36,670 nucleotides of DNA from a virus. The position numbers and the translations under genes are program-made. The notes beneath the pieces are model-generated. The model did no database searches. It saw nothing but the letters and a program-made list of their open reading frames with translations, and was not told the origin of the DNA. The stretch covers positions 1 through 36,670 of the IMG/VR virus record IMGVR_UViG_3300009514_000059. One strand, 5' to 3'. This document shows, in pieces, positions 2,833 to 20,317 of this stretch (position 1 is its first letter; every line of letters starts with the position of its first letter).

Positions 2833-3022
2833 TCTCGAGCTCTAGCGCTTCGATCTCGGCCTTGGTGTACACCTTGACCGGCCCATGCAGACACTCGAAA
2901 TGCGGCGCCAGCATGTCAGCAAATTCTTTGGCCGCCGGATTGCGCAGTGACTCGCCACGTTTCCGCTTTGGCCACACGCGCATGATTGCGTCATAAAGAC
3001 TCGGGTCTGTCCCAACCTTCAT
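2807..3022 (-). CDS. Hypothetical protein, last gene of the leftward cluster
   Basis: 71 residues with no recognised family; charged and helical, ending in a Glu/Lys-rich helix (KAEIEALELEIKKQ). The ATG at 3022 has a good ribosome-binding site (AGGGG, six bases upstream). The start lies 32 bases inside the lipoprotein gene upstream and the end runs into the convergent endolysin gene. The strong RBS and compact packing are the main reasons to believe it. Confidence 0.6.
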   Translation of the reverse strand: MKVGTDPSLYDAIMRVWPKRKRGESLRNPAAKEFADMLAPHFECLHGPVKVYTKAEIEALELEIKKQRQPQ

Positions 3023-3242
3023 AGATTGCCCCTATCTGTGCTGCCCAATACCACTTGCCGAGCACGCACACCCACAACTTGCCATCCTGTGTGACGGCTG
3101 GATCTTTGGTTTCGCACACAGATGGCAGCTCAGCGTAGAATGGTATGCGGTATGCGCCCGTCTGATCGGTGACAACCATGTAAGCGGGCGGCGCGTGTGA
3201 GCATGCGCTAGCAATCAACGCGAGCATCAATAGAGATCTCAT
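2991..3242 (-). CDS. Small lipoprotein (o-spanin-like size)
   Basis: 83 residues from the ATG at 3242, chosen because GGAAAGG lies just upstream and a lipoprotein signal begins there (MRSLLMLALIASAC, lipobox ASAC). The mature chain of ~68 residues has two further Cys and a W-rich stretch (LWVCVLGKWYW). An outer-membrane location follows from the lipobox if the host is Gram-negative. Being next to a single-TM gene upstream (3208-3507), the pair could be a spanin system near the endolysin, but the mature part lacks the usual Pro-rich spanin look. Confidence 0.65.
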   Translation of the reverse strand: MRSLLMLALIASACSHAPPAYMVVTDQTGAYRIPFYAELPSVCETKDPAVTQDGKLWVCVLGKWYWAAQIGAIYEGWDRPESL

Positions 3243-3507
3243 GCAAGTGCCTTTCCATATGTTCTTGGCAGAAATGGTGGCCAAAAAAATCCACCGTTGG
3301 CGCATTGACGCACTTGTGGGCGCGGCAAAACTTGGGGTGATTGTTGTCATAGATCGGAAACGAATATGTGTGGCGCGCGCGACGTATCAGCCTCGCCCTG
3401 GCCATATCGGTTCGATGCCACAGCATGCATGTGTGCCTGACGGCAATGATTGTCATCAGGAAAAACGACACCAAAAAAACGGTCAATGCAACATAGGTAA
3501 TCAGCAT
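3208..3507 (-). CDS. Small membrane protein with C-terminal Cys/His cluster
   Basis: 99 residues. An N-terminal transmembrane helix (LITYVALTVFLVSFFLMTIIAV) is followed by a basic stretch and then a Cys/His cluster (FCRAHKC, then HHFCQEHMERH) that could bind one zinc ion on the cytoplasmic side. It overlaps the downstream lipoprotein start by 35 bases. The RBS is weak. I recognise no family. Confidence 0.6.
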   Translation of the reverse strand: MLITYVALTVFLVSFFLMTIIAVRHTCMLWHRTDMARARLIRRARHTYSFPIYDNNHPKFCRAHKCVNAPTVDFFGHHFCQEHMERHLHEISIDARVDC

Positions 3508-5961: not shown

Positions 5962-6765
5962 ATGACCAAGGCACTCACCAAGGCCAACGCCGCCTTGCAA
6001 GAAATCAACCGCTATTTCAAGACAAAACAGAGCAGCATTTTACAGGATGTTGCCGACAAGCCAGCGGCTCGCCTGGCCATACGATCAGCCATGATCCGCG
6101 TGGCCGAGCACGAAAAACTGAGGGAATGCACGCCGTCCAGCCTGGTGCGATCAGTGTCAAAGGCCGTCATCATGGGGCTCGATTTCGAGCGCCAGCATTG
6201 CTACCTGGTACCGTTTTACAACAAGAAAGAGCAAGCAAACGAGGCCACCTTGATGGTGAGCTATAGGGGATACCAGTTCAAGGCCGGCCAATCCGGGTAT
6301 CAAATCGTCGCTGAAACAGTTTACGATGATGAGGATTTTGAGCTCACCATAGCTCCCATGCACATCATGCATCGCCCAAACCTTGCAGGCAGCAAAGGCA
6401 AGCGCCTGGGGGCCTATGCGGCCGCATATCGCAATGGTACCTTGGTGGCAGTAACCTGGTGTACGAATGACGATCTAGACAAGGCGCGCAAGATGGCAGA
6501 GGCCCGCAAGCCATCTGGAGCGTGGCAGAATTGGCCCAAACGCATGGAGAGAAAGCTGCCAATCAGCCGCCTATGCAAAGAGCTGCCTGACCTGGATCGC
6601 AACCTTGTGGCATACGATCAGGCCGAGGATGAGGGCAGCGCCCATAGCGCAATCATTGATGCGCCGGAGGATTTGACGCCCGTAGTGCCTGACAAGCTGT
6701 CTGCCGGGAAATCATGGGGATTTGGCCCATCTGAGCTACCGGATTCGGAGCCGCCGGCCGCATGA
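5962..6765 (+). CDS. recT: RecT-family single-strand annealing protein
   Basis: 267 residues. The ATG at 5962 is eight bases after AAAGGA, whereas the ATG at 5953 overlaps that site. Family features include SLVRSVSKAVIMGLDF, then CYLVPFYN, then EATLMVSYRGYQFKAGQSG, the RecT core. The C-terminus is acidic and Pro-rich. RecT anneals single strands during homologous recombination and normally works with an exonuclease; here the Fe-S nuclease upstream is the likely partner. The stop overlaps the next start. Confidence 0.92.
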   Translation: MTKALTKANAALQEINRYFKTKQSSILQDVADKPAARLAIRSAMIRVAEHEKLRECTPSSLVRSVSKAVIMGLDFERQHCYLVPFYNKKEQANEATLMVSYRGYQFKAGQSGYQIVAETVYDDEDFELTIAPMHIMHRPNLAGSKGKRLGAYAAAYRNGTLVAVTWCTNDDLDKARKMAEARKPSGAWQNWPKRMERKLPISRLCKELPDLDRNLVAYDQAEDEGSAHSAIIDAPEDLTPVVPDKLSAGKSWGFGPSELPDSEPPAA

Positions 6766-7007
6766 CCCCAAAGATCGTCAAGATGGCCCTGGTGTGTGCC
6801 GTTATTACGGCGCTATTCGCCGCATGGATGCGTGCCGAGGCTGGCCGCGCCAGGGCGCTTGAGGATCTGAGTCGGATGTCTGGCCACAACATAGGGTGCG
6901 GTGATGAGCTCGAGGAATCCAGGCGACAGCTAGATCTGTGCAGCCGTTACTATGACATGTGCATGAGTATTGCTGACATGCCTCTATTGGAGCATCGCCC
7001 ATGGTAG
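6762..7007 (+). CDS. Small single-pass membrane protein
   Basis: 81 residues, ATGA overlap with recT. An N-terminal membrane helix (IVKMALVCAVITALFAAWM) is followed by a charged helix containing four Cys (GCGDEL, DLCSRYYDMC). A spanin- or Rz-like topology is possible, but it sits inside the recombination block, so the role is open. It overlaps the next gene by seven bases. Confidence 0.65.
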   Translation: MTPKIVKMALVCAVITALFAAWMRAEAGRARALEDLSRMSGHNIGCGDELEESRRQLDLCSRYYDMCMSIADMPLLEHRPW

Positions 7008-14512: not shown

Positions 14513-15017
14513 CCTGATCGGCCGTCTTGGCCAAGACCCCGAGCACAAGCACACACAAGGCGGCTCAACCGTTTGCAATCTGTCTGTGGCGACAAGCCGC
14601 AAAGACAAAAACGGGCAAGACGTCACGCAGTGGCATCGTGTGTCATGTTTCGGCAAGACGGCGGACAACGTGGCCAAGTATCTTGCAAAAGGCTCGCTGG
14701 TGCACATCCAAGGTGAGATCACCTACAGCAAATACACTGATCGTGAGGGCGTGCAACGATATGGCACAAACATTGTTGCGTTTCGTGTGCTGTTTCTCGA
14801 AAGTCGCAACGTTCGAGGCGGGCAACAGCAACAACCCAACCAACACGAGCAAGACAAGGCCAACGGGTATCAACAGCCGCCGCAACAGGTGGCTCAGCAA
14901 AACCCGCAGTATTGGCAGCAACCACAGCAAGGCTACCAGGGTCCCCCGGGTGCGCAGGTGCCGGTCAGTGGCGGCCCGTATGGTCCGCCGCCCATGGATG
15001 ATGACGTGCCATTCTGA
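14496..15017 (+). CDS. ssb: Single-stranded DNA-binding protein
   Basis: 173 residues from the ATG at 14496, six bases after GAAAGGA. The OB fold covers residues 1 to ~105 (LNSVNLIGRLGQDPE, then WHRVSCFGKTADNVAKYLAKGSLV). A Gln/Pro/Gly-rich linker leads to the acidic tip DDDVPF, used in bacterial SSBs to dock partner proteins. It probably works with the RecT, helicase and primase of this window. Overlaps the gene upstream by 17 bases. Confidence 0.95.
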   Translation: MLNSVNLIGRLGQDPEHKHTQGGSTVCNLSVATSRKDKNGQDVTQWHRVSCFGKTADNVAKYLAKGSLVHIQGEITYSKYTDREGVQRYGTNIVAFRVLFLESRNVRGGQQQQPNQHEQDKANGYQQPPQQVAQQNPQYWQQPQQGYQGPPGAQVPVSGGPYGPPPMDDDVPF

Positions 15018-15025
15018 GGTGCGAC

Positions 15026-15187
15026 ATGACCCAAGAGATTCAAGAGGAATGCACAAGCTGCGGTGACATCGCAGACATCTGGCTGACATGCCCAGAGTGT
15101 TGCGGCGTCTACTGCGAGCGGTGCACCAACAATGGGTTCACGTGCGATTGCGCTGAGCCCGATGAAACAGGTGATGAGTATGAGTGA
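15026..15187 (+). CDS. Small cysteine-rich zinc-ribbon protein (53 residues)
   Basis: ATG at 15026 with GAGGT upstream. Eleven Cys in pairs (CTSC, CPECC, CERC, CDC), consistent with two structural zinc sites as in a RING- or ribbon-like domain. The acidic tail ends just inside the next gene. No family recognised. Confidence 0.6.
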   Translation: MTQEIQEECTSCGDIADIWLTCPECCGVYCERCTNNGFTCDCAEPDETGDEYE

Positions 15188-15656
15188 CGGCAGAACGGAA
15201 TCTTGTGGCGTGGCGCCGATGGAAATCCACCCCATGCAACGTGAGATCTCAGAGGTTGAGCTTGACCACGCGATCCATCCACAAGATGAGCTCAAGCTGT
15301 CTGCGGGCGGCGCCGGCGAATTGGTTGACGCCGAGCCTGATCCGAATGATTTCCAGAAATGGGACAGCGACAAAACCAGTTTCATGGGCATGCCTCAGTG
15401 GATCTGGTGGGAAATGCTCAACGTGTCGCAGTTCGGCGCCCAGCGGTATGGGCAACGCAACTGGCAGAAATGCACGGACGTATCCAGATACGTTGATGCC
15501 CTGTATCGCCACTTGTTGGCCGTGGTCATGGGCCAAGAGATCGATCCAGACAGCACGTTGCCGCACCTGGCTCATGCCATGTGGAATCTGGCGGCGTTGC
15601 GTTGGTTCCAGAAAAACAAGCCTGAGCTCATGGATGGACTGGGGGATTTTCTGTGA
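15180..15656 (+). CDS. DUF5664-type protein (dATP/dGTP diphosphohydrolase-like)
   Basis: 158 residues from the ATG at 15180 (an ATG at 15174 is also possible). The C-terminal half carries the family's all-helical signature: GAQRYGQRNW, then RYVDALYRHLLAV, GQEIDPDSTLPHLAHAMWN. Related proteins are described as dATP/dGTP pyrophosphohydrolases, and one (MazZ) supplies the 2-aminoadenine pathway of cyanophage S-2L. I see no purZ-like gene in this window, so a general dNTP-pool or anti-defence role is equally possible. Confidence 0.72.
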   Translation: MSDGRTESCGVAPMEIHPMQREISEVELDHAIHPQDELKLSAGGAGELVDAEPDPNDFQKWDSDKTSFMGMPQWIWWEMLNVSQFGAQRYGQRNWQKCTDVSRYVDALYRHLLAVVMGQEIDPDSTLPHLAHAMWNLAALRWFQKNKPELMDGLGDFL

Positions 15657-16261
15657 TGCCTCGAGCCAGCAGAGCCAAGCCCAACGCCGTGCCGCACTAC
15701 CATCGTGCGCATGGTCTCAAGGACTTGAACGGCAACGCGCAGCACAGGCTGTTGTCCAAGTTGTTGGTGGATCGTGAAAGCGGATGCTGGCTGTGGCTGG
15801 GATACATCAAGCAGGGGTATGGGATCGTCTGTCAGCGTGTCGGCCCTCGGCGCGCAGGCAAGATCATCAAGGTGCCAGCGCACCGCGCAGTCTATGAGCT
15901 GTACCGTGGACCCATACCTGACGGCATGCTGTTGCGTCACAAGGTGTGCGACACAACCCAGTGCTGCAACCCGTATCACATGGAACCGGGAACCCATTCG
16001 GACAACATGCGCGATATGAGAGATGCAGGCAGGTCACTCACCAATGAACGCAACCCAAGGGCAAGGCTCACAGCAGCACAGGTTGACGCCATCCGAAGGG
16101 CCCGTCGGGGGACGTCCCCGACGCCTCTCAAGGTCTTGGCCAAGAAATACGGTGTGCACTTGGCAACAATAGACTATGCGGCTCGAGGCGGCACATGGAG
16201 TGGATGCAAAGAGCCGCCCGTGGCAACACGGCAACCCAAACCCCGAAAGGCAAAAAAATGA
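15656..16261 (+). CDS. HNH endonuclease with C-terminal DNA-binding region
   Basis: 201 residues from the ATG at 15656, overlapping the previous stop. HNH_3-type features: GCWLWLG, AHRAVYELYRGPIP, LLRHKVCDTTQCCNPYHM, then THSDNMRDMRDAG. The C-terminal third (NPRARLTAAQVDAIRRA to LKVLAKKYGVHLATIDYAARG) is an HTH that would choose the DNA target. This is the layout of free-standing phage homing endonucleases. An 8-bp GC hairpin (16103-16123) lies within the coding sequence between the two parts. Confidence 0.85.
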   Translation: MPRASRAKPNAVPHYHRAHGLKDLNGNAQHRLLSKLLVDRESGCWLWLGYIKQGYGIVCQRVGPRRAGKIIKVPAHRAVYELYRGPIPDGMLLRHKVCDTTQCCNPYHMEPGTHSDNMRDMRDAGRSLTNERNPRARLTAAQVDAIRRARRGTSPTPLKVLAKKYGVHLATIDYAARGGTWSGCKEPPVATRQPKPRKAKK

Positions 16262-16671
16262 AATCAATCATGGCGCTGTTGTTGTTTGTGGCTTTCATCT
16301 CAGGATCTGCATGGTGCATGGCAGATGCTGAGGCCGTCACGTTTCACGGTGATAGGCCTGGCGTGTTGGGCTCGATCAGTTTCACGGGGCAAACCGCAGC
16401 AACCATCAATCTCACCATGGACCTCATCCCGACTCAGATGGTTGCCGTCAACACTGAGACTGATGATGACGGCACGATGATGGCCGTGTACACGGTGACC
16501 ACATCGGGCATGGCTGACGCAGGCACGGTGACCGGCCGTATTCCAATCTATGCCGGCGAGTCAACGCGAGTCGCAGTGGCCGGGGCTTTCATAGAGATCC
16601 GGGGTGTGCCTGATTTCGCGTTCGCTGAGGCCGGGCCGGAGAGTGGTCCGGCCATTCAGGGGGGTGACTGA
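16258..16671 (+). CDS. Secreted protein of unknown function
   Basis: 137 residues from the ATG at 16258, which overlaps the HNH stop and has GAAAGG upstream. A classic signal peptide (MKSIMALLLFVAFISGSAWC, then MADAEA) leads to a ~115-residue beta-rich domain (VTFHGDRPGVLGSISFTG, ATINLTMDL) resembling an Ig-like fold. Destined for the periplasm or outside. First of a run of envelope-directed genes. Confidence 0.7.
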   Translation: MKSIMALLLFVAFISGSAWCMADAEAVTFHGDRPGVLGSISFTGQTAATINLTMDLIPTQMVAVNTETDDDGTMMAVYTVTTSGMADAGTVTGRIPIYAGESTRVAVAGAFIEIRGVPDFAFAEAGPESGPAIQGGD

Positions 16672-16892
16672 TGGCCACCAAGATCAACCCATCCGTGTGT
16701 GACAGGGGCGACGATAACGCCGAGCTCATCACCATCAGAGAGCTGATGGCCATGCAGATTGCCGCCGGCCTGTTTTCTGGCGGCCGCACCGCCACCGAGA
16801 TCATCCCCAGAGTCGCAGTGCGAAAGGCAAATGAGCTGATTGAAGAGCTTGAGAATTTCGAGGATCAAAGAGGCAAAGGCAGGCCAGGATGA
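16671..16892 (+). CDS. Small helical hypothetical protein
   Basis: 73 residues. Middle helix TIRELMAMQIAAGLF, then an acidic helix (NELIEELENFED). This layout resembles small phage proteins of unknown role found near early genes. Its ATG overlaps the previous stop and its own stop overlaps the next start. Confidence 0.6.
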   Translation: MATKINPSVCDRGDDNAELITIRELMAMQIAAGLFSGGRTATEIIPRVAVRKANELIEELENFEDQRGKGRPG

Positions 16893-17230
16893 GGCTTTTT
16901 GCGTTGATGATGATTGGCGCTGTAGGGTGCGCCTCTGCGTCAGCGCGATCGCCAAAGACTAGGGTTGGTGCGGTAGAGATTGCATACGGCAGTCCGTCTC
17001 AAATGCCGCGCCGCCCTAGTCACCTTGAGATGTGGATCGATATTGAGACGGGCATCATTTATCGCGAGCATGCTGGCGCGTGGCGCCTGTACGGATATCT
17101 GAGCTTTAGCTCATGCTGGCCTAGGCCAGACTTTGAAAACCCAAGCATTCCAGATGTTGAGGTTGAATGCGATGACGATGATGTGTGTGAATACGCGTGG
17201 CCGCCCGGAACCGATGGCGGAAACATTTGA
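16889..17230 (+). CDS. Lipoprotein, unknown function
   Basis: 113 residues. The signal MRLFALMMIGAVGC ends in lipobox AVGC, so the mature protein should be lipid-anchored. The mature part reads like a short beta-barrel decorator (LEMWIDIETGIIYREHAGAWRLYGYL) and ends acidic with two more Cys. ATGA-coupled to the gene before. Confidence 0.65.
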   Translation: MRLFALMMIGAVGCASASARSPKTRVGAVEIAYGSPSQMPRRPSHLEMWIDIETGIIYREHAGAWRLYGYLSFSSCWPRPDFENPSIPDVEVECDDDDVCEYAWPPGTDGGNI

Positions 17231-17245
17231 CGAAAGGATGACTTG

Positions 17246-17578
17246 GTGAGAAAACTGAAAAGATCGATGGCAAAGTTTCAGGGCGAGTTTCGCCGGCCGC
17301 ATGCGCTCAAGACTCGCACCTATGGGCCAATCGGTATGAGAACTGTCAGGCGAGCCCTGCCGGCACCCGTGCGCCCAACTCACGGCGCCAAGGTGGCCCC
17401 ATGGAAACGCGAGCATTTCAAGCTGATTCCGCGCCCTGGATGCCGATCTTGCCATGGGACCGGATCCCCTGGAAACTACTGTACTGTAGCAAACAACAAG
17501 ATCACGGCTCGGGTCAAGTTGGCCTGCGCGTGTCTTGCGAAACCGCCCACCAGGGCGATGCTGAGGATGGCGAAATGA
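17246..17578 (+). CDS. Basic protein with CxxCxG zinc motif
   Basis: 110 residues starting at the GTG at 17246, seven bases after AAAGGA. The N-terminal 60 residues are basic (RKLKRSMAKFQGEFRRP). A DnaJ-like half zinc site follows (GCRSCHGTGSPGNYC), closed by CAC near the end. Probably binds nucleic acid or folds around one zinc. Its stop overlaps the next start. Confidence 0.6.
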   Translation: MRKLKRSMAKFQGEFRRPHALKTRTYGPIGMRTVRRALPAPVRPTHGAKVAPWKREHFKLIPRPGCRSCHGTGSPGNYCTVANNKITARVKLACACLAKPPTRAMLRMAK

Positions 17579-18054
17579 CACGCATTGCGTTGAAATTTGT
17601 GTTTTGGTTTGGTGTTGGTCTGTGCCTCGGCATGATCATGGGCTGCGGTGATGATGGACCGCTAATTGATGACGGTATCTATCGAGTGACCATGACGCTG
17701 CAAAGCAATGAGCTACCGTCAATGTATTCTGTTGACTCAGAGGCAAAAGAGGTGTGGGAAATCTACTCAAACGATCAAGGGTATTGCTTCCGCCTGCCCA
17801 ATGAAGAGGTCAACGGCGGATGCAGCAAAGAGCAAAACGGATCTCTGACATTCTCATCCGAAAACGTCTGGAATGAAGAGTGCGGCGGCATCATAGAGAC
17901 AGCGATCAACATCAAGCCCAATCGATACGGATTCGCCGGCGATGCGTGGTGGCGTGGCACTCTGTCATGCAACCCTGACAGCGATTTTCGCGGACCGTTT
18001 ACCGTGAGGTGGAATGTGGTCGGCAAACAAACGCATGTTGAGTTTGTGAGGTGA
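17575..18054 (+). CDS. Lipoprotein, unknown function
   Basis: 159 residues from the ATG at 17575. Signal with lipobox IMGC (FWFGVGLCLGMIMGCGDDG), then a mature domain of ~130 residues with six Cys that may form disulfides (CFRLP, NGGCSKE, EECGGI, TLSCNPDSD). The beta-rich look with a final TVRWNVVGKQTHVEF strand suggests a compact extracytoplasmic domain. The second lipoprotein of this block. Confidence 0.7.
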   Translation: MTRIALKFVFWFGVGLCLGMIMGCGDDGPLIDDGIYRVTMTLQSNELPSMYSVDSEAKEVWEIYSNDQGYCFRLPNEEVNGGCSKEQNGSLTFSSENVWNEECGGIIETAINIKPNRYGFAGDAWWRGTLSCNPDSDFRGPFTVRWNVVGKQTHVEFVR

Positions 18055-18146
18055 GCTGTCTGCACTCAGACCTGGCAGTGATGCTGATCCTGGTGATCAT
18101 CGCCGTTGGGATCGTGGCCATGGGAGATGATGACTCATGGAAATGA
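18051..18146 (+). CDS. Membrane microprotein (31 residues)
   Basis: Starts with GTG overlapping the lipoprotein stop (GTGA) and ends ten bases inside the next gene. One hydrophobic helix, LAVMLILVIIAVGIVAM, with an acidic tail GDDDSWK. Size and topology are like known single-helix phage peptides (holin-like or exclusion peptides); function unknown. Confidence 0.5.
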   Translation: MSCLHSDLAVMLILVIIAVGIVAMGDDDSWK

Positions 18147-18391
18147 TCGGTTGGATCGGCGCGCTGTTTCTGAGTGCATGCGCAGTGCCGCAGGCGCACT
18201 ACTGCTGGCGCATGGGGCATGCTCGAGGCCTGTCTATGTCGTTTCTGATGCTTTGGGCCGGCGGCGAGATTGCCATGTCTGCCTACGTGGTGGCCGACCA
18301 TGCGGCCTCGGCCCCGCTGATGCTCAACTATCTTTTCAACATCGCCATGATTTGTGTGATGCTAAGGTACAAGCTATGGCCGAAAGCCTGA
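18137..18391 (+). CDS. PQ-loop-repeat membrane protein
   Basis: 84 residues with three membrane helices, the size of one triple-helix bundle. Helix one carries the PQ dipeptide (SACAVPQAHYCW), followed by the loop GHARGLSMSFLMLWAGGE, the usual PQ-loop signature of SWEET/SemiSWEET, cystinosin and PnuC-like carriers. GGAGA precedes the ATG. A dimer could form a small-solute carrier in the inner membrane. A phage-borne SemiSWEET-like protein is unusual. Confidence 0.7.
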   Translation: MEMIGWIGALFLSACAVPQAHYCWRMGHARGLSMSFLMLWAGGEIAMSAYVVADHAASAPLMLNYLFNIAMICVMLRYKLWPKA

Positions 18392-18615
18392 TCTTTTTCA
18401 TCGCCGGGCTGGCTGTTGGCGTCTGTGTGGGCGGTTGGTTCATTGGTCAATGGGTGTTCAACCAGGTGGCCGATGAGGCCACAGAGGCCATGGAAAAGAT
18501 TGCGCGGCGCGTCATCATGCATGGATTTGATCGCGACTATCTGCGCAACGCAGTCAATAAGTCAGGGTTTTTTAGCTGGAAAAGCGATCAGGACAAGCCT
18601 GAGCGGTACGGGTAG
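18376..18615 (+). CDS. Small single-pass membrane protein
   Basis: 79 residues from the ATG at 18376, overlapping the PQ-loop gene by 16 bases. A Gly-rich membrane helix (LIFFIAGLAVGVCVGGWFIG) is followed by an amphipathic, charged cytoplasmic part. No family recognised; translationally linked to the PQ-loop protein and so perhaps its partner. Confidence 0.6.
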   Translation: MAESLIFFIAGLAVGVCVGGWFIGQWVFNQVADEATEAMEKIARRVIMHGFDRDYLRNAVNKSGFFSWKSDQDKPERYG

Positions 18616-18624
18616 ACTTGCCGG

Positions 18625-19125
18625 ATGGGACAGGTTCGATGGCGACATGATGGCGATGCCCTGGCCTGGGGGACTGCTGGGATCAGCCCTGCTGGACTGA
18701 TGGCCGTTGCCAAGAGATATGCCAGGCCCATTCGCTTGCCCGTGGCCATTCATTCCGGCAGCGACATGGATAATTATGGCCACACGGTCAGCGACAAGCT
18801 AGGCCACGTTATCACGCTCAACGTGCCGTGTTGCATGTATGCCAAGGTCAGCATGGTTTGGAACACGTCCACACACAGGTTTAGCGGACAGCTGGCGCCG
18901 CTCGATGTGCATGACTCGATTGTGGTGACGGTCATGACGCTGATCCATGAGCTGCGTCATGCATGGCAGTTTGAAAAGTGGCCAGCCAAAGAGCATGAGG
19001 CACAGGTTGCCGAGATTCATTGCGATGCAATGCGTTTCAGTTTTTCCCGCATTGAGATGGATGCAGAGATCTTTGAGCGCAAACACCTTGCTCGAGCGCT
19101 CGAGATTTTCTATGCAAACGAGTGA
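18625..19125 (+). CDS. HExxH metalloprotease-like protein
   Basis: 166 residues. HELRHAWQFEKW holds the zincin motif HExxH (two His ligands and catalytic Glu); EHEAQVAEIHCDAMRF about 15 residues on offers the third ligand. The N-terminal half is a beta-rich region. It resembles small SprT/gluzincin-like phage proteins. No signal peptide, so it would act in the cytoplasm, although its neighbours are envelope genes. The RBS is poor and the start could be a later ATG. Confidence 0.65.
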   Translation: MGQVRWRHDGDALAWGTAGISPAGLMAVAKRYARPIRLPVAIHSGSDMDNYGHTVSDKLGHVITLNVPCCMYAKVSMVWNTSTHRFSGQLAPLDVHDSIVVTVMTLIHELRHAWQFEKWPAKEHEAQVAEIHCDAMRFSFSRIEMDAEIFERKHLARALEIFYANE

Positions 19126-19523
19126 TGAATCACTATGAATACCGGCTCACCATCAAGGGCCCCCCGGTGTCCTACAAGCGCCAGCGGCTCGGCCGGCGGC
19201 GAGCTCTGCCGGATGACGTGCGTCAGTGGCGAGACATGGCGATCATGCAACTGCGCCTGCAGTGGGGTGGTCGTGAGATTTTGACCGAACCGGTTGCCGT
19301 GACGGTGGCCGTGTACTTGGGCCATGGTCAGCGCATGGATGCCATCAACGCGGCGCAGGGTGCCCTTGACGTCATGCAGGAAAAGTGCGGCCGCACTCTT
19401 GGGGCGGGCATTGTCAAAAACGACAAGCAAGCCAAGGATGTCAGGATCCTCGAATTCAGAGACAAAAACGATCCCAGGATCGAAATAACCTTGCGCTCCT
19501 TTGACGGCTGTGTTACCGTCTAG
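19125..19523 (+). CDS. rusA: RusA-like Holliday-junction resolvase
   Basis: 132 residues. The family pattern is visible: an N-terminal IKGPPVSYKRQR strand, GQRMDAINAAQGALDVM (normally D-x-D-N-x-x-K-x-x-x-D), then GAGIVKNDKQAKDVRILEFRDK and a terminal RIEITL strand. The first Asp of the usual DxDN pair is replaced (QRMDAIN) and KNDKQ stands for DDxQ, so catalytic residues need checking. It would cut branched recombination or replication DNA before packaging. Overlaps the gene before. Confidence 0.78.
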   Translation: MNHYEYRLTIKGPPVSYKRQRLGRRRALPDDVRQWRDMAIMQLRLQWGGREILTEPVAVTVAVYLGHGQRMDAINAAQGALDVMQEKCGRTLGAGIVKNDKQAKDVRILEFRDKNDPRIEITLRSFDGCVTV

Positions 19524-19529
19524 GTAACA
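19511..19529. repeat. Perfect 7-bp inverted repeat across the rusA stop
   Basis: TGTTACC (19511-19517), spacer GTCTA, GGTAACA (19523-19529). The stop codon lies in the spacer. No T-run follows. Either a transcript-end hairpin or an operator for the gene at 19552. Confidence 0.5.
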
Positions 19530-19551
19530 TCAACCGAAAGGATTTTGCCCA

Positions 19552-19914
19552 ATGTCATCCAACGCAATGCCCATGGGCTACGGGGCAACAGTCATCGAGA
19601 CTCGTAACAGTATGGAGTCAATGATCGTCGACCTGATAAAGCAGGGAAAGAGCTATAAAGAGATTAAGGATGTGGTGAGCGGTCAATTTGGCCACTGTGG
19701 CCCTCGGGAGATTGCGGCCGTTAAGCGCAAGCACGGCTTTCCTATGAAGGCCAAGCCAAGGCCAGGCAAATCGAAACGCAAACCGCTTGAGAAAGCAATC
19801 AAATCGCTGATTGCCGTCATGAAAGATGCCGGATACACCAGCCTGTTGGTGAAATCTAACGGCGATGTCACCGGCGAGCGCACAACCACCAAGCGCCTCA
19901 GCATCGAGACTTGA
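19552..19914 (+). CDS. Hypothetical protein with HTH-like N-terminus
   Basis: 120 residues, with GAAAGGA well placed before the ATG. Residues 20-62 (MIVDLIKQGKSYKEIKDVVSGQFGHCGPREIAAVKRKHGF) look like a helix-turn-helix with a basic tail (KSKRKPLEKAIKSL). A DNA-binding role is plausible. The C-terminus is a short beta strand region. Confidence 0.6.
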   Translation: MSSNAMPMGYGATVIETRNSMESMIVDLIKQGKSYKEIKDVVSGQFGHCGPREIAAVKRKHGFPMKAKPRPGKSKRKPLEKAIKSLIAVMKDAGYTSLLVKSNGDVTGERTTTKRLSIET

Positions 19915-19916
19915 TC

Positions 19917-20117
19917 GTGAGTGAGCGCAAGTGCCACTGCACTGTGCGTGTGTGGATGGTTGTGGTTGCCGCGGTGGTTGCCACGGCCATCAACGCATGG
20001 ACAAACGCAAGAGAGACTCAGGGCCAAGTCAGAGACGCAGAATTGCGCTCGCTGAGGGCTTGCCGTCTCGAGTGCAAAACAAGACAGCCATCATGCCCAA
20101 GACTGCCTTTGCCATGA
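19917..20117 (+). CDS. Small membrane protein, tentative
   Basis: 66 residues from GTG at 19917, two bases after the previous stop. A CHC pair precedes one membrane helix (VWMVVVAAVVATAINAW), then a basic Cys-containing tail that overlaps the next gene. The RBS is weak and another frame is open here, so I am unsure. Confidence 0.4.
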   Translation: MSERKCHCTVRVWMVVVAAVVATAINAWTNARETQGQVRDAELRSLRACRLECKTRQPSCPRLPLP

Positions 20118-20317
20118 ATTGTTGGAAACGCTCTTTCAGAAGCAAGCGTTCGGCTGCGAGGGAGTGCAAAAAGATCCGCCGCAATCGCACAGCGTCAGAT
20201 CGCTACGCCCCCGAGCTGTTTCCGTACATGTGCAGGCGATGCGGGTTTTGGCACCTGTCATCACAGACAGATTTGAGAGCAAAAATCAGAAAGGATCGAT
20301 CCAATGTCAAACAATGA
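20093..20317 (+). CDS. Small zinc-binding phage protein
   Basis: 74 residues from the ATG at 20093. The layout is familiar from many phages: CWKRSFRSKRSAARECKK, a basic linker, then YMCRRCGFWHLSSQ, giving four Cys plus one His for a zinc site. Function unknown; basic charge suggests DNA or RNA binding. Upstream starts in the frame (19931, 19997) would overlap the membrane gene. Confidence 0.6.
   Translation: MPKTAFAMNCWKRSFRSKRSAARECKKIRRNRTASDRYAPELFPYMCRRCGFWHLSSQTDLRAKIRKDRSNVKQ

Follow-up and report, generated by a model that had tools for sequence, protein, structure and literature searches.

In the 36,670-nt viral record IMGVR_UViG_3300009514_000059 of IMG/VR, analysed at full length and here called the window, positions 16258-18615 hold eight co-directional genes, six of which carry export or membrane signals. 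We tentatively favour reading this block as a co-expressed, functionally modular accessory cassette that acts on the envelope of the live host by means of a transporter and orphan lipoproteins. Under this reading mostly orphan envelope-directed genes would have been built into a rightward DNA-metabolism operon and would be expressed together with their neighbours. The PQ-loop protein encoded at 18137-18391 would be a three-helix half-transporter, most likely an inner-membrane homodimer moving a small solute, and the most likely site of action of the secreted protein and the two lipoproteins would be the periplasm or the outer membrane of a host that is still alive. By analogy with the precedent of T5 Llp, the likeliest use of the exported orphans would be superinfection exclusion through receptor block.

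The PQ-loop protein is predicted to have the SemiSWEET fold, and it is not a typical sugar SemiSWEET. It scores 40.3 bits against the Pfam PQ-loop family PF04193, above the cut-off of 22, and its Pro18-Gln19 motif lies in helix 1 of a three-helix repeat whose helices span residues 2-26, 34-54 and 59-80 in the model. That AlphaFold2 model, built from a 25-row alignment, has three helices and a mean predicted local distance difference test score (pLDDT) of 90.6. SemiSWEETs top the Foldseek list with a best template-modelling (TM) score of 0.85; the E-values are weak, at 0.0065 and up, as expected for only 84 residues. Alignment to SemiSWEET with VIA-align gives a Z of 12.9 over 80 residues, which alone is not decisive because these are helical bundles, and the sequence profile concurs, matching SemiSWEET structures with an E-value of 7e-11. 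Against the NCBIfam SemiSWEET model the protein reaches 18.9 bits, below the cut-off of 80.

At the sugar-pocket position the viral proteins differ from the sugar transporters. Pro18, Trp40, Glu44, Asn64 and Asn68 are invariant in 25 of 25 viral rows, and none of those rows has Trp at position 47, the column that aligns with the SemiSWEET pocket Trp (Trp50 of EcSemiSWEET; pocket residues as given in PMC4309421). A gapless match to human cystinosin puts Glu44 at position 170. According to PMC9385667, human Phe170 corresponds to plant His56, a residue that together with a lysine sandwiches the ligand disulfide; this equivalence to a ligand-side residue suggests that the charged Glu44 probably faces the cavity.

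The block lies in a tightly packed, operon-like run on the plus strand, with a dATP/dGTP diphosphohydrolase and an HNH endonuclease upstream and RusA and terminase downstream; a zincin-like gene and RusA follow the block (Table 1). A preliminary description of the region had presented six of these genes as a run of envelope-directed genes. All six are present where it placed them, and each has an envelope signal as judged from hydropathy and by eye, but the run is not unbroken, as two cytoplasmic-looking genes that it omitted (16671-16892 and 17246-17578) are interleaved. Lipobox-like motifs in both putative lipoproteins were picked out by eye, and that of the 16889 product is atypical, with Ala at -3. 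The many 4-base overlaps also reported earlier are borne out: from 15653 to 18625, adjoining genes overlap at 7 of 9 junctions, at 4 of 9 by exactly 4 bases. Such overlaps between the stop codon of one gene and the start codon of the next point to coupled expression, and the placement among DNA-metabolism genes suggests action before lysis. The smallest frame, 18051-18146, overlaps its upstream neighbour by 4 bases and its downstream neighbour by 10, and likely, though not certainly, codes for a 31-residue peptide. Codon usage backs every gene of the block except 17246.

Table 1. Genes of the block and its flanking genes, in order along the window
Feature	Position	Strand	Basis
HNH endonuclease	15653..16261	+	PF13392 and PHROGs; 4-base overlap with first block gene
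137-aa putative secreted protein, orphan	16258..16671	+	N-terminal hydrophobic stretch, h=2.15
73-aa orphan without hydrophobic segment, interleaved	16671..16892	+	Codon score 12.7
113-aa putative lipoprotein, orphan	16889..17230	+	Lipobox-like AVGC
110-aa basic protein, orphan, interleaved, GTG start	17246..17578	+	Cys cluster in C-terminal half; ribosome site and translation
159-aa putative lipoprotein, orphan	17575..18054	+	IMGC; mature part Cys-containing
Likely 31-aa single-helix peptide	18051..18146	+	h=2.69; GTG start; weak ribosome site
84-aa three-helix PQ-loop protein, predicted SemiSWEET fold	18137..18391	+	PF04193, profile match, AlphaFold2 model, fold search
79-aa orphan, single transmembrane helix at the N terminus	18376..18615	+	h=2.41
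166-aa zincin-like protein (HELRHAWQ), at +2 from the PQ-loop gene and beyond the original block	18625..19125	+	DUF6782 below cut-off; motif-level profile match

The base composition of the block resembles that of the rest of the genome, with a GC fraction of 0.557 against 0.560 elsewhere. It contains 3 promoter-like sites (shuffle mean 4.6) and no strong internal promoter, and 11 terminator-like sites against 6.9 in shuffles, counted on both strands, of which none is convincing. We considered the block as a moron, that is, a recent foreign insert with its own promoter, and rejected this because the GC content is the same and promoter-like sites are no more frequent than in shuffles.

The remaining genes of the block are orphans, named here by their first coordinate. 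Searches of PHROGs, Pfam and PADLOC returned nothing above noise for the products of 16258, 16671, 16889, 17246, 17575 and 18376, and NCBIfam nothing for the first five; the 31-residue peptide has no match in PADLOC, the sole family library against which it was scanned. In PHROGs, Pfam and PADLOC only the Pfam PQ-loop match rises above noise, and none of the products tested has a match among lysis, virion or defence families, in line with the earlier view that these are not known lysis or virion genes. Translated searches of phage records with tblastn found no match for any of the five queries 16258, 16889, 17575, 18376 and 18625. Scans of viral contigs found no relatives of 16889, 17575 or 18625, and as single-protein scans that require near-exact 8-residue words they exclude close relatives only. 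The 16258 product has no significant PDB match. A structure model of the 17575 lipoprotein was discarded at a pLDDT of 42.9. The five orphan envelope genes would fit a fast-changing interaction with the host.

Several observations weigh against the reading that we favour. The orphan lipoproteins match no family in the four libraries, which leaves them without any tie to exclusion proteins already described. Asn64 of the PQ-loop protein is invariant and may correspond to the SemiSWEET pocket Asn (Asn66 of EcSemiSWEET), although in the LbSemiSWEET profile alignment it falls one residue away. Finally, the argument from Glu44 is indirect, as is that from the zincin neighbourhood discussed below.

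Many viruses that are not related to one another carry the PQ-loop gene, which travels without its companions. We found relatives in 85 further viral records, none of which also has the remainder of the block. Among 136 fetched loci (1.13 Mb) the protein matches 124, and no other tested block gene, nor HNH, zincin or RusA, matches any; as these loci were fetched mostly with PQ-loop queries, the counts show that the gene travels alone and not how frequent it is. In a tree of 39 rows a branch with support 100/98 separates off the 7 bacterial rows, in which the loop joining helices 2 and 3 is longer and a loop motif differs from that of the viral rows; the bacterial sample is small and drawn from two sequence patterns, so "virus-specific" is valid for that sample only. 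In a 642-kb phage (LR756502, locus L012:4644-5258) a 204-aa frame carries the PQ-loop part at its C-terminal end. At L103:3623-5981 two PQ-loop-like genes lie close by one another, adjoining an M15-type endolysin, a lipoprotein and a coiled-coil-like membrane protein.

This independence raises the question of whether the block has any joint function at all. It is conceivable, if on the unlikely side, that a permissive accessory region has collected unrelated orphans, every one of them acting by itself or having little effect. Under hand labels, which mark 10 envelope genes among 63, at least six in some 8-gene run arise under random order with P=0.003, and this concentration of 6 of the 10 labels within eight genes speaks against a chance gathering, as do the overlapping start and stop codons with the coupled expression that they suggest. 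On the other side stand the solitary travel of the PQ-loop gene and the result of a uniform but cruder caller, by which the window reaches 4 hydrophobic products in 8 genes, a density of at least 4 per 8-gene run being found in 17 of 91 comparison loci and of at least 5 in 5 of 91. Because the cluster is rare by hand labels yet not by the uniform caller, we treat the clustering as real but ordinary in kind for a phage accessory region; the richness in exported orphans is unusual.

Another setting for the PQ-loop protein is suggested by its neighbours in other viruses. In the window the zincin-like gene lies at +2, the 79-aa gene standing between, and its product carries the HExxH zinc motif (HELRH) and scores 20.5 and, in a second scan, 19.3 bits against DUF6782, below the cut-off of 27. 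It has a profile match (23 columns at 87.7%) to zincins adjoining other viral PQ-loop genes, and the motif HELxHAWQxE occurs both in it and in the HAWQ type among them. We counted linkage in 86 records (84 IMG/VR contigs, LR756502 and the window), weighted by 25 clusters at 65% identity, after removing the short fragment hits L109 and L110 and duplicate retrievals of a contig; 45 of the 86 records fall in one PQ cluster. Zinc-peptidase motifs have a cluster-weighted frequency of 0.15 at +-1 (0.23 for +1 by itself), compared with 0.018 at a distance of four genes or more, for a link first noticed in 22 loci that are included in the 86 records. The raw counts are 22 of 80 at +1 and 8 of 85 at -1, where the motif of one hit (L029), an exonuclease-like frame, is probably spurious, and an HExxH frame shorter than 260 aa occurs somewhere in the fetched stretch in 68 of 86 records. 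The observed draws average 7.0 against a null mean of 1.8 under shuffling; a fraction of 0.0001 of the shuffles attains that observed mean and 0.023 attains the lowest draw, so that the neighbourhood exceeds chance. The neighbouring zincins are of several sorts, including SprT-like proteins over or near the Pfam cut-off, the HAWQ type, and two with lipoprotein-like starts (L106 and L131). In L104 (4202-5002) and L113 (4400-4972), which belong to different PQ clusters, the gene just upstream of the PQ-loop gene encodes a Clp protease. At L106:3422-7429 the PQ-loop gene stands between a lipoprotein zincin and a BT1-type transporter, with two secreted lysis-like proteins upstream.

It is tempting to combine these data into a broader proposal, in which bacterial viruses would possess a PQ-loop half-transporter clade of their own, with an invariant acidic residue suited to amino-acid-like, peptide-like or proton-coupled cargo, and would pair it with small zinc peptidases or with different proteases in an infection module that recurs; the window would hold one such pair within a set of exported proteins. 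As a whole we consider this proposal unlikely.

A lysis function is worth weighing because the membrane-gene cluster of Aeromonas phage 56 is its lysis region. The block might be one part of a split lysis module, the PQ-loop protein or the small helical peptides serving as holin and the lipoproteins acting with the 79-aa protein as spanin-like components. Hydropathy revealed no clear holin in 1389-2832, and elsewhere the PQ-loop gene stands beside a muramidase (L085) or near M15-type endolysin genes (L103 and L106). The endolysin-type amidase that marks the lysis region of the window (Amidase_2, PF01510 over the cut-off) is, however, at 2443-2721, 13 kb from the block, in keeping with the earlier remark that the block is far from the lysis region, so the block does not adjoin an endolysin gene. 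Most of the viral PQ-loop loci that we inspected are not evidently lysis regions; the +1 neighbours include the muramidase of L085, a C39-like peptidase (L101) and a gp5/CHAP protein (L122), and by informal judgement neighbours of lysis type are not clearly above expectation. Polar residues are strongly conserved across the viral PQ-loop proteins, and such conservation is unlike that of holins. Taken together, a split lysis module seems distinctly improbable.

The preliminary description had gone further and suggested a single envelope system, here taken as a multi-protein one with cooperating parts. Gene order, overlaps and the shared cellular address of the products are consistent with such a system, but two cytoplasmic-looking genes interrupt it, none of the 136 loci holds any other tested block gene beside the PQ-loop gene, and no second genome with the set was found, which makes the proposal very unlikely. 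The condition that the description had named as refuting it, genes occurring singly in relatives, applies to the PQ-loop gene, the one block gene that has relatives. The effects that it suggested, an altered envelope, a block to superinfection or help with uptake, may still apply. Least probable is a scavenging pair, in which the downstream zincin would yield peptides or amino acids for the PQ-loop protein to move: the zinc-peptidase enrichment at +-1, the Clp proteases directly upstream and the invariant Glu at the cystinosin ligand position agree with it, but the window zincin is at +2, not +1, and below the Pfam cut-off, the link was noticed before being tested, and most neighbouring zincins have no export signal.

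The window belongs to a contractile-tailed phage, as it has a tail sheath gene among its recognisable terminase, portal, capsid protease, major head protein and tape measure genes. Its nearest named relative by terminase is Aeromonas phage 56 (Popoffvirus), at 37% identity at best, and region 15000-20300 has no blastn match among phage records. A terminase scan gave seven loci, most at 29-34% identity, of which none is usable for the region upstream of the terminase because identity is low and the nearest (L004, 42%) begins inside the terminase gene. Some further genes of the window deserve mention. The gene at 1832-2269, which adjoins the amidase, bears the PHROGs label tail assembly chaperone, yet DUF1353 is over the Pfam cut-off. 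On the minus strand, at 2991-3242 and 3208-3507, the gene for a third putative lipoprotein (MRSLLMLALIASAC...) runs, in a different frame, over the end of a gene whose 99-aa product has an N-terminal helix; the pair belongs to a leftward group with a dUTPase-like gene and a short helix-turn-helix-like gene, recognised by eye. Between RecT and a DNA transfer protein, 6762-7004 (+) encodes a small product whose N terminus forms a hydrophobic helix and whose tail contains Cys; it resembles an inner-membrane protein.

Database entries named PQ loop already exist for uncultured phages and giant viruses, so the existence of viral PQ-loop proteins is not new. In our searches of the open-access literature no paper is evidently devoted to a phage-encoded PQ-loop or SemiSWEET protein, two SemiSWEET surveys make no mention of virus or phage, the word phage in the cystinosin paper refers to phage display, and the separate viral clade, the invariant Glu and the peptidase neighbourhood appear undescribed. 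If the viral proteins form a distinct and widespread transporter clade, many phages would alter membrane transport in their hosts by means of a protein only some 85 residues long, a size that suits mutational scanning and structure work. The peptidase link gives a testable prediction of the cargo, and the orphan lipoproteins can be regarded as candidate receptor blockers of a new kind.

Aeromonas phage 56 has exonuclease, RecT, SSB and terminase-portal genes, as the window does; neither the PQ-loop gene nor any other tested block gene has a match in that phage. According to PMC9586334, T5 Llp is a small phage lipoprotein that blocks a receptor from the periplasm, and the window's orphans, as small putative phage lipoproteins, invite the same idea of receptor jamming. 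They are larger proteins, have no family match and do not adjoin a recognised receptor-binding gene; Llp and Cor sequences were not compared with them directly. The PQ-loop protein shares its three helices, length of about 85 residues, PQ motif and predicted fold with the SemiSWEETs (EcSemiSWEET, 4x5m; LbSemiSWEET, 4qnc and 5uhs), from which it differs in falling under the NCBIfam cut-off, in lacking the pocket Trp and in its invariant Glu44 in helix 2. To cystinosin, a PQ-loop amino-acid transporter, it has a gapless match over the first two helices, with an E-value that is weak for the single sequence and 0.005 for the profile, and the viral Glu44 falls at a ligand-contact position; cystinosin has seven helices in two repeats, whereas the PQ-loop protein of the window consists of one.

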